From Chryseobacterium gotjawalense (lineage in GTDB: Bacteria; Bacteroidota; Bacteroidia; Flavobacteriales; Weeksellaceae): DNA of 64,000 nt. Of the stretch, positions 52,193 through 56,810 are shown piece by piece (within the stretch, counting starts at the first letter, position 1; each line of letters opens with the position of its first letter). Location of the stretch: contig NZ_CP124855.1 in assembly GCF_030012525.1 (NCBI RefSeq), forward strand, positions 1,736,001-1,800,000. The letters run 5' to 3'. A program made the translations under genes and the position numbers. Under the pieces are notes generated by a model, which worked only from the letters and a program-made list of their open reading frames with translations, had not been told where the DNA came from and searched no databases.

Positions 52193-52933
52193 TTAAAGCG
52201 AATTCATTAACTCATCTGTAATTTCCATATTGTGAAATACGTTCTGTACATCATCATCGTCTTCGAAACGCTCCAGCATTTTCATATTTATTTTAAAATG
52301 TTCTTGCGAAACTTCTTTGGTGTTATTTGGGATTCTTTGAATTTCCGCACTTTTGGGTTCAATACCCAGTTCGTCTAATTTATGAGATAACGATCCGAAA
52401 TCTTCAAACGCCGTTGTGATGAAAACTTCATCTTCGTCCTGTTCTATTTCTTCTGCGCCGCCATCAATCATTTCCATTTCGAAATCATCCCAATCCAATT
52501 TAATTAAAGAACGGTCCAGAGAGAAAATCCCTTTGCGGTCAAAGATGAAAGCCAACTCTCCGTTCTTGCCCAGATTCCCGTCAAATTTATTGAATATTGC
52601 ACGAACATTGGCGACAGTTCTCGTAGGGTTATTCGTTGTACAGTCTATAAAAAAAGCAACTCCACCCTGTCCATAACCTTCATAGGTAATTTCTTCATAA
52701 TTTTCCGCATCAGCGCCGCTTGCTTTTTTAATTGCACGCTCCACGTTATCTTTGGGCATATTAGCACCTTTAGCATTTTGGATGCATCTTCTTAATGCAG
52801 GATTAGTATCAGGATCCGGCCCTGCTGCTTTTACCGCAAGAGCGATATCTTTACCAATTTTAGAAAACGTTTTGGCCATTTTATCCCAGCGGGCCATCTT
52901 AGAAGCTTTTCTATATTCAAATGCGCGTCCCAT
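52193..52933 (-). CDS. YebC/PmpR family protein (TACO1-like)
   Basis: The 246-residue protein shows GRAFEYRKASKMARWDKMAKTFSKIGKDI at the N-terminus, NPALRRCIQNAKGANMPKDNVERAIKKASG, and YEGYGQGGVAFFIDCTTNNPTRTVANVR, the YebC signature. YebC proteins bind DNA as regulators in some species and have been shown to aid translation through proline-rich stretches in others. The N-terminus is the Flavobacteriia form (AFEYRK instead of HSK). Length is normal. Confidence 0.94.
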   Translation of the reverse strand: MGRAFEYRKASKMARWDKMAKTFSKIGKDIALAVKAAGPDPDTNPALRRCIQNAKGANMPKDNVERAIKKASGADAENYEEITYEGYGQGGVAFFIDCTTNNPTRTVANVRAIFNKFDGNLGKNGELAFIFDRKGIFSLDRSLIKLDWDDFEMEMIDGGAEEIEQDEDEVFITTAFEDFGSLSHKLDELGIEPKSAEIQRIPNNTKEVSQEHFKINMKMLERFEDDDDVQNVFHNMEITDELMNSL

Positions 52934-52982
52934 ATTATTTGATTTTTAATGATTACAAAAATACGATTTTGTTTACAAAAAA

Positions 52983-53005
52983 ACACCCTCGAAATTCGAG
53001 GGTGT
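52983..53005 (-). terminator. Terminator of the OmpA gene
   Basis: ACACCCTCGAA and TTCGAGGGTGT form a perfect 11-bp stem around a single central base, so some inner pairs will open. It lies 25 nt after the OmpA stop on the minus strand. Confidence 0.8.
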
Positions 53006-53029
53006 CTATTATTTAGAAAAATAATTTAA

Positions 53030-54472
53030 TTATTTTTTCTTTTTAGCTGGAGCCTTTTTAACAACTGTTTTTTTCTTAACAACTGGTAAATCTGATTTGT
53101 CCATTGCTTCAAAAGCTTCTCTGTCAACAGCAGTAACAACTACTTTTCTGTCAGCCATTCTTTCAGCATCTGATGCGTTTTCAGGAACGGTAGCGTTAGC
53201 TTCACCTACACCTTTAGATTTCAATTGGTTTCCAGAAACCCCTCTTGCTTCTAGAGCATTCACTACCGCAGCAGCTCTCTGTCTAGATAACTTCAAGTTA
53301 TAAGCTTCAGAACCTTTTTTATCTGTTTCACCAGTTAAAAGGAATGTTCCACCGTTAGAAGATTTAATAATTTCTGCAGCTTGATTCAATCTTTCGTTAG
53401 ACTCTGGTCTAATAGTCGCTTTATCAAAGTTGAAGAAAATACCTTTCAATGCTCCTGTCGCTTCATCAGCATAAGCTGTTTGAGGCTTAGGACAACCATT
53501 GTATTCTTTAAGTCCGAAAACTGTAGGACAAGCGTCATCTTTATCTAAGATTCCGTCTCCGTCAGTATCTGGCCAAGGACAACCATTGTTCTCTGCTGGA
53601 CCTGCAACATCTGGACAAGCGTCATCTTTGTCTAGAACACCATCTCCGTCAGTATCTGGCCAAGGACAACCGTTGTTTTCAACTGGACCTGCAACATCTG
53701 GACATTGGTCATCGATATCTGGAATTCCGTCTCCGTCAGTATCAGGACAACCTTGGAATTGCGCTAAACCTGGAGTATCAGGACATCTGTCATCTTTATC
53801 AGGAATTCCGTCTTTATCTCTATCTGTATTTCCGAATCTAAATAATAAAGATGCAGAAGCTTGCCAAAAGTTAGCAACACTAGATTTATCTCCTGGCGTA
53901 GAAACGTAATCTCCCTGAACACCTAAACCGAAGCTTTTAGTAACCCAGAAATTAGATCCGATTCCAGTAGCAAGAGCAAAATGATTAGCTCCGATGTTTT
54001 TACCATCTTTGTCAACCGCATTTGCTTGTCCGGTATAGTCATGTCTCAAATAATTGGCACCAGCTCTCAAATATGGATCGAACCAAGAATCTTCATTCCA
54101 AAGACCATTGAATTTAAATTGAAGACCTAAACCAGTCATTAGGAAAAATTCTTTCCCCATTCCGATTTTCTTGTTGTCAACATTCCCCACAGAGGTTTGC
54201 CAGTCAAGAACAAAGTACTTGCTTAAGTTTCTTGCAACTGTTAATTTTGAAAGTGGAGGTGTAATTGTAAAATTGTTCATGTTATACAACTGACCGTTAT
54301 CACTACCGCCAAAAGCAGTTGAGAAAACTTTTCCCACACTTCCTCCTGCCGCAGCATGATTTACTCCGTGAGCACCAACCCCGATTAACCACGGGTTGCT
54401 GGTAGTCTGAGCGAAAACAGTAGAGGCAATCGTAAGTGCCAATGCTGAAATTCCTAATTTTAGATTTTTCAT
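53030..54472 (-). CDS. OmpA-family outer membrane protein with thrombospondin type 3 repeats
   Basis: The 480-residue protein has a signal peptide (ISALALTIASTVFAQT), an N-terminal beta-barrel (to about residue 215), five calcium-binding TSP3-type repeats (DTDGDGVLDKDDACPDVAG and similar; three nearly identical 29-residue units), and a C-terminal OmpA peptidoglycan-binding domain (IFFNFDKATIRPESNERL, NLKLSRQRAAAVVNALEARGV). A Lys-rich tail KKKTVVKKAPAKKKK ends it. It probably links outer membrane and cell wall and is highly expressed. Confidence 0.94.
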   Translation of the reverse strand: MKNLKLGISALALTIASTVFAQTTSNPWLIGVGAHGVNHAAAGGSVGKVFSTAFGGSDNGQLYNMNNFTITPPLSKLTVARNLSKYFVLDWQTSVGNVDNKKIGMGKEFFLMTGLGLQFKFNGLWNEDSWFDPYLRAGANYLRHDYTGQANAVDKDGKNIGANHFALATGIGSNFWVTKSFGLGVQGDYVSTPGDKSSVANFWQASASLLFRFGNTDRDKDGIPDKDDRCPDTPGLAQFQGCPDTDGDGIPDIDDQCPDVAGPVENNGCPWPDTDGDGVLDKDDACPDVAGPAENNGCPWPDTDGDGILDKDDACPTVFGLKEYNGCPKPQTAYADEATGALKGIFFNFDKATIRPESNERLNQAAEIIKSSNGGTFLLTGETDKKGSEAYNLKLSRQRAAAVVNALEARGVSGNQLKSKGVGEANATVPENASDAERMADRKVVVTAVDREAFEAMDKSDLPVVKKKTVVKKAPAKKKK

Positions 54473-54549
54473 AGAATTAAATGATTAAATAATTGATAAT
54501 GCAAAATAAATATAAATTTTCTTCATAAACAAAGATTTTTGGTCTTTTT

Positions 54550-55008
54550 TTAACTTTTCTTTAATATTCTGTCGAGATTTCGCTTGTTTTCTCTTTCTTT
54601 TATGCTTTCGCGTTTATCAAAGAGTTTTTTTCCACGACCGAGAGCAATAAGAACCTTGGCTTTTCCTTTATCATTTATATAAAGTTTTAAAGGAATTATC
54701 GTATTACCAGCATCTTTCAGTTTCTTTTCAAACTTTTGCAACTCCCTTTTGTGCAATAGCAACTTCCGTTCCCTTTTCGTCTTATGGTTATAAAAAGTTC
54801 CCAATTTATACTCATCAATCATCATATTTATGATATACAATTCACCATCAATAAACTGACAAAAGGACTCGGTGATACTCGCTTTCGATGACCGCAATGA
54901 TTTAATCTCTGTCCCCGTAAGTACCATGCCTGCTTCTATTTCTTCAGAAAGCTCATATTCAAAGCGTGCTCTTTTATTGTAGATTGCAATTGATTTTTCA
55001 ATTTTCAT
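54550..55008 (-). CDS. smpB: SsrA-binding protein
   Basis: The 152-residue SmpB binds tmRNA in ribosome rescue. It shows YNKRARFEYELSEEIEAGMVLTGTEIKSLRSSKASI and the C-terminal KDAGNTIIPLKLYINDKGKAKVLIALGRGKKLFDKRESIK followed by the Arg/Lys-rich tail. The tmRNA gene itself is not in the window. Length is normal. Confidence 0.96.
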   Translation of the reverse strand: MKIEKSIAIYNKRARFEYELSEEIEAGMVLTGTEIKSLRSSKASITESFCQFIDGELYIINMMIDEYKLGTFYNHKTKRERKLLLHKRELQKFEKKLKDAGNTIIPLKLYINDKGKAKVLIALGRGKKLFDKRESIKERENKRNLDRILKKS

Positions 55009-55159
55009 TTTGATGGTAAATTTGATATTATTTAATCTGTTAAATTTTATAAAATATTAACATAACACTTTAGAATTTTAGATCGGGCCAGTCATTATCA
55101 ATTTCGCTGCGTTTAAATTCACACTTTTTAAACAATGTATTAAACCCGATTTCTTTTCG

Positions 55160-55167
55160 TAATTTTG
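55160..55167 (+). promoter_or_regulatory. -7 promoter box of the ABC-F gene
   Basis: TAATTTTG matches TAnnTTTG and lies 20 nt before the ATG at 55188. The -33 element is not clear. Confidence 0.5.
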
Positions 55168-55187
55168 CATCAAATTTACAAAACTAT

Positions 55188-56810
55188 ATGTTAACAGTAT
55201 CTAATTTATCTTTACAATTCGGAAAAAGAGTACTTTTTGACGAGGTAAATATTATGTTTACGAAAGGAAATTGCTACGGAATTATTGGTGCTAATGGTGC
55301 CGGTAAATCGACTTTCCTGAAAATCCTAACCAAACAACAAGATCCCACAACAGGCTCTATTTCTCTTGAACCGGGGAAAAGAATGTCTGTATTAGAGCAA
55401 GATCACTTTGCTTACGATAATTTTACCGTGCTCGACACCGTTTTAAGAGGGAACAAAGTATTGTTCAAAATCAAAGAAGAGATGGACGCGCTGTACGCAA
55501 AAGAAGATTTCTCTGATGCTGATGGAATTAAAGCGGGTGAACTTGGCGTAATTTATGACGAAATGGGCGGCTGGAACTCTGAATCCGACGCGATGACGAT
55601 GCTTTCTAATGTCGGCATCAAAGACGATATGCACTATCAGATGATGGGAGAACTGGAAAACCAGAACAAAGTAAAAGTGCTTCTTGCACAGGCATTGTTC
55701 GGAAACCCAGATGTTCTGATTCTGGATGAGCCAACCAATGACTTGGATATCGAAACCATCGCCTGGTTAGAAGATTTCTTATCAACTTACGAAAATACGG
55801 TAATTGTAGTTTCTCACGACCGTCACTTCCTGGATACCGTTTGTACACACATCGGAGATTTAGATTATTCTAAACTTAATTTATATACCGGAAACTACTC
55901 GTTCTGGTACCAGGCATCGCAATTGGCGACAAGACAGCGTCAGCAGTCCAATAAAAAAGCCGAAGAAAAGAAAAAGGAATTGCAGGACTTTATCGCCCGG
56001 TTCTCTTCCAACGTAGCAAAAGCAAAACAGGCAACCGCTCGTAAGAAGATGATCGACAAACTAAATATTGAAGACATTAAACCTTCATCCAGACGTTATC
56101 CTGCGATAATTTTTGACACAGAACGTGAAGCCGGTGATCAAATTCTGGAAATTAAAGATTTAGAAAAAACCAAAGATGGCGAATTACTTTTCTCTAAAAT
56201 CGATTTGAATTTAAAGAAAGGAGATAAGGTAGCCGTGATTTCTAAAAACTCCCTGGCAATTACCGAATTCTTCCAGGTTTTAAGCGGAAATACAGAAGCT
56301 GATAAAGGAACATTCAATTGGGGAATTACCACGAACCAATCTTACATGCCACTTGACAATACCAGTTTCTTTCAGGAAAACATCAACTTGGTTGATTGGC
56401 TAAGACAATTTACAAAGAATGATGAAGAGCGTCACGAAGAATATATGCGCGGATTTTTAGGGAAAATGCTTTTCTCCGGAGACGAAGCCTTAAAATCCTG
56501 TACCGTTCTTTCAGGAGGGGAAAAAATGAGATGTATGTTCAGTAGAATGATGTTGCAACGTGCCAATATCCTTTTGATGGATGAACCGACCAATCACCTG
56601 GATTTGGAAAGTATCACCACTTTAAACAACTCTTTGGTTAGCTTTAAAGGAAATATTCTGTTGTCTTCTCATGACCATGAAATGTTGCAAACGGTCTGTA
56701 ACCGTATTATTGAGTTAACTCCGAAAGGAATTATTGATAGAGAGATGACCTACGATGAGTATTTAGAAGATAAGAAAGTGAAAGAATTACAACAGCAAAT
56801 GTATTCTTAG
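55188..56810 (+). CDS. ABC-F family ATPase with one degenerate composite site
   Basis: The 540-residue soluble ABC-F protein has two nucleotide-binding domains joined by a linker rich in Lys and Gln (about residues 240-300). Domain 1 has an intact Walker A GANGAGKST (34-42) and Walker B LILDEPTND, but its signature LSGGQ is replaced by ELENQ (155-159). Domain 2 has signature LSGGE (441-445) and Walker B LLMDEPTNH intact, but its Walker A is replaced by ISKNSLAITE (351-360) with no Lys. The family acts on ribosomes (EttA, YbiT) or gives antibiotic protection. The domain pattern is YbiT-like; its cellular role is not known. Confidence 0.92.
   Translation: MLTVSNLSLQFGKRVLFDEVNIMFTKGNCYGIIGANGAGKSTFLKILTKQQDPTTGSISLEPGKRMSVLEQDHFAYDNFTVLDTVLRGNKVLFKIKEEMDALYAKEDFSDADGIKAGELGVIYDEMGGWNSESDAMTMLSNVGIKDDMHYQMMGELENQNKVKVLLAQALFGNPDVLILDEPTNDLDIETIAWLEDFLSTYENTVIVVSHDRHFLDTVCTHIGDLDYSKLNLYTGNYSFWYQASQLATRQRQQSNKKAEEKKKELQDFIARFSSNVAKAKQATARKKMIDKLNIEDIKPSSRRYPAIIFDTEREAGDQILEIKDLEKTKDGELLFSKIDLNLKKGDKVAVISKNSLAITEFFQVLSGNTEADKGTFNWGITTNQSYMPLDNTSFFQENINLVDWLRQFTKNDEERHEEYMRGFLGKMLFSGDEALKSCTVLSGGEKMRCMFSRMMLQRANILLMDEPTNHLDLESITTLNNSLVSFKGNILLSSHDHEMLQTVCNRIIELTPKGIIDREMTYDEYLEDKKVKELQQQMYS

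Follow-up and report, generated by a model that had tools for sequence, protein, structure and literature searches.

ABC-F proteins are described as closing on two ATPs and binding the ribosomal E site (PMC11282234), and their release from it as being triggered by ATP hydrolysis (PMC12096078). In most of them the ATP motifs are highly conserved, the A-loop of domain 1 excepted (PMC8782954). M. tuberculosis EttA, an ABC-F that engages an ATP analogue unequally at its two sites before hydrolysis, with the engaged site alternating as the small subunit rotates, has conserved motifs at both sites, and the same account describes its ADP state as not binding the ribosome stably (PMC8782954). Single Glu-to-Gln mutants likewise point to functionally unequal sites in MsrD (an ARE ABC-F; PMC10314930), although MsrD is a resistance factor in which both catalytic Glu residues are there and both single mutants are impaired; functional site inequality is also reported for Vga(A), as cited in PMC10314930.

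Two systems stand closer to the protein described here. E. coli YbiT has been solved on the ribosome in its EQ2 form (9njf, 9nlf), and B. subtilis YkpA/YbiT aids the translation of charged stretches, relieving stalls (PMC11381351). Outside the ABC-F proteins, degenerate ATP sites are already known in ABC transporters: in yeast Pdr5 and its relatives one composite site has its Walker A Lys, signature and other motifs replaced (PMC7756269). One review argues that transporters would let an unneeded power-stroke site degenerate, and adds that ABC-F factors required one functional site to bind ribosomes (PMC6389857).

An earlier note on the stretch of DNA analysed here (64,000 nucleotides of Chryseobacterium gotjawalense; hereafter the window) had singled out an ABC-F ATPase with one intact and one doubly degenerate composite ATP site, and its author was not aware of asymmetric sites described for ABC-F ribosomal factors. 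That claim of novelty holds in part: functional inequality had already been reported for ABC-Fs, but in the openly readable literature we found no ABC-F clade in which a site is fixed in a degenerate state at the sequence level (the E. coli YbiT signature may already have been described in print).

The protein and its two ATP sites

55188..56810, + strand: ABC-F ATPase of the YbiT/YkpA group, tandem ABC domains, 540 amino acids (open reading frame, domain profiles and matches)
55857..56108, + strand: interdomain linker, ABC_tran_Xtn (PF12848), residues 224-307 (profile match)

The reading frame starts with ATG and has no internal stops. PF00005 matches two stretches of the protein (123.3 bits, cut-off 25) and the PF12848 linker (67.7 bits, cut-off 25.9) lies between them, the one-chain arrangement of two ABC domains and linker that defines the ABC-F family. 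The top NCBIfam model is NF011646 (PRK15064.1, E. coli YbiT type) at 629.4 bits, which does not reach the equivalog cut-off of 762 bits, so the protein is not assigned to this equivalog. Its closest named proteins are from Kaistella, and it is ~43% identical to its E. coli relative (over the full length, with the same two ABC domains and linker) and ~56% identical to its Bacillus relative; the same genome holds two further full-length ABC-F matches. The AlphaFold model (pLDDT 87.5) has a predicted fold that matches ribosome-bound ABC-Fs, and among solved structures the best match by both Foldseek and sequence is ribosome-bound E. coli EQ2-YbiT, while M. tuberculosis EttA stands at 26% identity by Foldseek. 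By analogy with these relatives, the protein is predicted to bind the E site and hydrolyse ATP on the ribosome.

The composite site formed by the domain-1 Walker A and the domain-2 signature (site I) is intact:

55287..55310, + strand: Walker A1, GANGAGKS, residues 34-41 (alignment)
55398..55400, + strand: Q-loop 1, Q71 (Gln in 528/528 aligned sequences)
55716..55748, + strand: Walker B1 and D-loop 1, LILDEPTNDLD, residues 177-187, with catalytic E181 (alignment)
55815..55817, + strand: H-loop 1, H210 (alignment)
56508..56522, + strand: signature 2, LSGGE, residues 441-445 (alignment)

The other composite site, of the domain-2 Walker A and the domain-1 signature (site II), is degenerate:

55653..55667, + strand: signature 1 slot, LENQN, residues 156-160, lost (alignment)
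56172..56174, + strand: A-loop 2 slot, K329, lost (Phe/Tyr in E. coli-type YbiT)
56241..56264, + strand: Walker A2 slot, SKNSLAIT, residues 352-359, lost (alignment)
56352..56354, + strand: Q-loop 2 slot, L389, lost (Gln expected)
56571..56603, + strand: Walker B2 and D-loop 2, LLMDEPTNHLD, residues 462-472 (E466 kept here, replaced in some relatives)
56670..56672, + strand: H-loop 2, H495 (kept here, replaced in some relatives)

The alignment thus bears out the central reading of the earlier note, namely that domain 1 keeps Walker A and B, that domain 2 keeps its signature and Walker B (D465 and E466), that residues 351-360 (ISKNSLAITE) fill the Walker A2 slot without its Lys-Ser/Thr pair, and that one composite site is intact while the other has lost both halves. 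Compared with E. coli YbiT (L216, VLGTNGVGKST), the Walker A2 slot carries G352S, G355S, G357A and K358I, and Thr stays at 359. In signature 1 the S, G and G of LSGGQ are indeed all replaced, although the slot is L156-E157-N158-Q159-N160, one residue later than the ELENQ that the note had given. The degeneration is moreover broader than noted there, as judged by alignment: the A-loop 2 aromatic (F/Y) and the Q-loop 2 Gln, each found in 107/107 E. coli-type sequences, are also missing, whereas D465, E466 and H495 are all retained. A pattern scan of the 540-residue chain finds a single GxxxxGK[ST] (residue 34) and a single SGG-type signature (441), with no second Walker A or signature elsewhere.

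The protein thereby shares with Pdr5 one site that lacks the Walker A Lys and the partner signature beside another that is canonical; in Pdr5, a membrane transporter, the Glu and His of the degenerate site are replaced too, whereas the window protein still has E466 and H495 and such replacement is confined to some of its relatives. E. coli YbiT also has a degenerate signature 1 (VAPGW), but its Walker A2, Q-loop 2 and A-loop 2 and its domain-2 Glu and His remain, which leaves only half of its site II degenerate. The B. subtilis protein (P0206, identified as YkpA by species and group, not by accession) has an intact site I, a broken Walker A2 (GRNELAVT) and Lys in Q-loop 2, but differs in a partly kept signature 1 (LGGSE) and in keeping the first Gly of Walker A2.

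A collapse of the domain-2 P-loop was considered and rejected. In the window protein's model the domain-2 helix begins at 355, with 353-354 in a loop (the domain-1 counterpart is a loop at 35-39), and a control model with intact Walker A2 (E. coli, P0247) shows the same boundaries, with strand 347-352 and helix 355-366 in domain 2, and in domain 1 a helix from 37 already, across its intact Walker A1. For these two proteins, AlphaFold models without nucleotide do not separate a broken P-loop from an intact one.

Motif states and rates of change among relatives

We aligned 528 distinct relatives, comprising a Bacteroidota group (297), a Bacillota/Fusobacteriota group (124) and an E. coli-type group (107); the latter two are largely the top matches of one search each and form an uneven sample, dense in Bacilli and Enterobacterales, with Fusobacteriota represented by two proteins (L209, L210). 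Seven members of the E. coli-type group (L180-L186) belong to the window's own phylum, where their genomes are distant ones; these are E. coli-like YbiT proteins with an intact Walker A2 and PTD or PND at signature 1. At site I, Q71, D180, E181, H210, S442, G443 and G444 occur in 528/528 sequences, and the remaining exceptions are G34 replaced by Cys once and S41 by Thr once and Pro once (one sequence, L179, is truncated across Walker A1).

Site II is a different matter. In the Bacteroidota group the Walker A2 Lys is absent from 289/297 sequences (present in 8/297) and signature 1 reads SGG or TGG in 0/297; 272/297 have neither the Lys nor signature 1, and 266 of these also lack any Walker A2 Gly. 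Within the Bacillota/Fusobacteriota group the Lys is present in 79/124 and absent in 45/124, the middle Gly of Walker A2 has become Glu or Asp in 122/124, Q-loop 2 Gln survives in 1/124, and a broken Walker A2 stands alongside an SGG/TGG signature 1 in 49/124. At least two of the three Walker A2 Gly are missing from 297/297 Bacteroidota-group and 122/124 Bacillota/Fusobacteriota-group sequences, while Ser/Thr at 359, the Mg-ligand position, is retained in 288/297 and 123/124, respectively. E. coli-type sequences keep Walker A2, Q-loop 2 Gln and the domain-2 Glu and His in 107/107 and have lost signature 1 in 107/107. One intact site beside a broken one is the pattern in Bacteroidota, Fusobacteriota and Bacillota, B. 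subtilis among them, and also in a single protein of the Mycoplasmatota, from Mycoplasmopsis (code 4), which has Walker A2 GDDDIAKT, Asn in the Q-loop, Gln at the Glu position and Tyr at the His position.

These counts bear on two proposals of the earlier note. Its suggested check, whether both losses always occur together, succeeds close to home, with the Walker A2 Lys absent and signature 1 not SGG/TGG in all 81 sequences formed by the window and 80 loci, but the two halves separate in the wider groups. Its proposal of a coordinated loss is not supported, as intermediates of both kinds occur (107/107 E. coli-type; 49/124 Bacillota/Fusobacteriota). The aligned motifs instead look like a stepwise release of the whole site that is specific neither to this protein nor to Flavobacteriia.

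As a control for the motif patterns, we used 60 fetched copies of the 72 matches to this genome's two other ABC-Fs, with a Walker A pattern that tolerated Ala at the first Gly. Two Walker A motifs were found in 60/60 copies and at least two signatures in 58/60, the exceptions being L245 (single signature match) and L277 (a fragment); going by their motifs, the two other ABC-Fs of the same class retain both sites. The same patterns applied to 185 Bacteroidota-group YkpA-type loci gave one Walker A in 184 (L179 being truncated) and one signature in 184; the extra signature match is in L136 (KSGGF at 372) and falls outside the signature slot.

On a 91-sequence tree the YkpA-type proteins form one group. 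With motif columns left out, an 88-sequence tree set 81 YkpA-type sequences apart by a branch with SH-aLRT 99, the protein grouping with Bacillota proteins and away from E. coli YbiT; this was a quick tree with long outgroup branches and an unsure root, from which L215, L179 and OUT_L003 were omitted. On one tree of 83 YkpA-type leaves, the 12 catalytic residues of site I underwent 1 change in total, against 204 at their 12 counterparts in site II (mean changes per column 17.0 at site II and 13.3 for the average column); D465 (2 changes) and H495 (5) both lie below the average column. By these substitution counts, site II evolves like ordinary sequence, D465 and H495 excepted. The 91-sequence tree needs a minimum of 11 presence/absence changes for E466, 4 for H495 and 15 for the signature-1 Ser/Thr, and 0 for Q71, E181, H210, S442 and G443.

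In place of the domain-2 catalytic Glu (E466), 26/297 Bacteroidota-group sequences have Q, T, D or G, and 20/297 have R, Y, K or F instead of H495. The Glu is naturally Thr in the Bacteroidales L200 and L201, and Thr or Gln among L200, L201, L207, L151, L154, L156, L161, L163 and L164, Gln being the same change as in laboratory EQ traps. Eleven residues (162, 205, 239, 240, 243, 244, 245, 259, 381, 449 and 497) are at least 95% conserved in 82 YkpA-type sequences and absent from the 107 E. coli-type ones; His497 comes shortly after the H-loop His, and Trp240 lies near the linker start. One copy, L079, is 69% identical, like the Flavobacteriaceae copies among which it falls; its contig bears the title Candidatus Rokubacteria, and its assignment may be a binning error.

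Selection and genomic neighbourhood

The gene is under purifying selection and is not decaying. Nei-Gojobori dN/dS is 0.020-0.030 for the whole gene and 0.022-0.042 for domain 2 (five of seven pairs with computable dS, one of these with dS near 2; the other two pairs were saturated). A single copy was found in 95/100 sampled genomes of the family, with stops in 0/95 matches, and the gene is present in 91/93 good genomes of the family; across the phylum sample, 117/394 genomes have a match at 1e-100. These values agree with the earlier note in arguing against random decay. Sequencing error or frameshift was also ruled out, as sequences at 97-99% identity are full length and the same motif losses appear in all 81 aligned sequences.

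54550..55008, - strand: smpB, SsrA-binding protein, divergent upstream neighbour (45 of 45 family loci, L009-L053)
52193-52933: yebC, beyond an OmpA-like gene (gene calls and NCBIfam)
starts 56918: recJ, downstream neighbour (gene calls)

SmpB has a role in ribosome rescue. Three genes with ties to ribosome stalling or rescue (the ABC-F gene, smpB and yebC) lie inside 5 kb, at 52193-56810. The ABC-F start is 179 bases from the divergent smpB, and across L009-L053 smpB lies divergently 47-234 bases upstream in 45/45 loci, yebC upstream inside the 3-kb flank in 37/45, and recJ in the flanks of 30/45 (29 downstream on the same strand). All three are missing from the flanks of 35 further loci (L054-L088). 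Synteny was rejected as functional proof, the smpB linkage being limited to the family and absent from L054-L088; the neighbourhood fits a translation role and is suggestive within one family. Recent reports credit YebC proteins with relieving stalls at proline-rich motifs (PMC11990639, PMC12234827); the one encoded here is called a transcriptional regulator in the NCBIfam models. Shuffled sequences contained about as many promoter-like and terminator-like sites as the real ones. Upstream of the ATG, TAATTTTG at 55160-55167 resembles the -7 element of Bacteroidetes promoters.

A proposed single hydrolytic site and its alternatives

Our preferred explanation, to which we give a probability of roughly 0.6 on the basis of sequence comparison, is a working ABC-F translation factor with a single hydrolytic ATP site. 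ATP would sit at site I, enclosed on the domain-1 side by Walker A1, Walker B1, Q71 and H210 and on the domain-2 side by LSGGE; its binding would close the two domains into a form that fits the ribosomal E site with the linker extended toward the P-site tRNA, and its hydrolysis would open the protein and let it leave the ribosome, a cycle modelled on solved relatives and published work. Hydrolysis should take place at site I because E181 is invariant and E466 variable. A protein of this kind could not alternate sites as M. tuberculosis EttA does, and would have to close on one ATP. Site II, which most likely neither hydrolyses ATP nor holds it in the canonical way, would have been free of catalytic selection for long and have eroded stepwise, with Walker A2 and Q-loop 2 probably lost early in the YkpA-type clade, signature 1 lost separately and repeatedly, and the domain-2 Glu and His lost in scattered lineages; it may now act as a pivot or a protein contact. 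Site II may still be of some use, because D465 and H495 change slowly, Ser/Thr is kept at 359, 79/124 Bacillota/Fusobacteriota-group sequences have the Lys, and E466 is present.

An unlikely, though serious, alternative is that site II is non-hydrolytic yet holds ATP or ADP as a structural ligand, so that two nucleotides are bound and one is burned. Degenerate exporter sites do contain unhydrolysed ATP (PMC7756269), D465 and H495 change less than the average column, and both the 359 Ser/Thr (288/297 Bacteroidota-group sequences) and K358 (79/124 in the Bacillota/Fusobacteriota group) are widely kept. The window protein, however, has none of the Walker A2 Lys and Gly, A-loop aromatic, Q-loop Gln or partner signature, and in most degenerate exporter sites it is the signature and Walker B Glu that differ, a change of the Walker A Lys being named in the passages cited for ABCG5/G8 and Pdr5 only (PMC7756269). 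That substitute residues replace the lost motifs, and that site II still hydrolyses ATP, we regard as highly improbable: candidates are to hand in the clade-conserved H497 (98% of 82 sequences; Arg in 106/107 E. coli-type sequences), in V162 and T381, conserved near the site, and in the Q-loop P388 (80/82) and N391 (75/82), but several of the clade's lineages carry Q, T, D, G or N in place of the domain-2 catalytic Glu.

Two further accounts concern how the site came to be broken. A single coordinated event that removed both halves for a special one-site function in Flavobacteriia could explain why 272/297 Bacteroidota-group sequences lack the Walker A2 Lys as well as signature 1, but it is very hard to square with an intact Walker A2 beside a lost signature 1 in every E. 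coli-type sequence, with the reverse combination in 49/124 Bacillota/Fusobacteriota sequences, and with the at least 15 changes that the signature-1 Ser/Thr needs on the 91-sequence tree. Least credible of all is a decaying protein whose domain 2 is vestigial: conservation is somewhat lower in domain 2 than in domain 1 (mean majority fraction 0.722 vs 0.775 in 185 sequences), yet the 95 family matches are stop-free, the dN/dS of domain 2 is low, signature 2, D465 and D-loop 2 are conserved, and the same pattern is common to several phyla.

Returning to a single hydrolytic site, the need of ABC-F proteins for two ATPs is a standing question, and the YkpA-type clade looks like a natural one-site ABC-F. 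A one-site design seems able to function, given that B. subtilis YkpA/YbiT relieves stalls and assuming that the characterised YkpA/YbiT is P0206. We extend the reading tentatively, at slightly less than even odds, to a whole housekeeping ABC-F clade (at least three phyla and one Mycoplasmatota protein, B. subtilis YkpA included) that uses one ATP per cycle and leaves its second site free of nucleotide. The question is directly testable, since B. subtilis YkpA, which is tractable and has a published stalling assay, appears in the clade; in EQ2 traps of YkpA-type proteins, one of the two mutated Glu residues is a position at which evolution itself makes replacements, in places by Gln, and this calls for caution. 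If the reading is true, the two-ATP, alternating-site cycle of EttA would be dispensable for ABC-F action on the ribosome.
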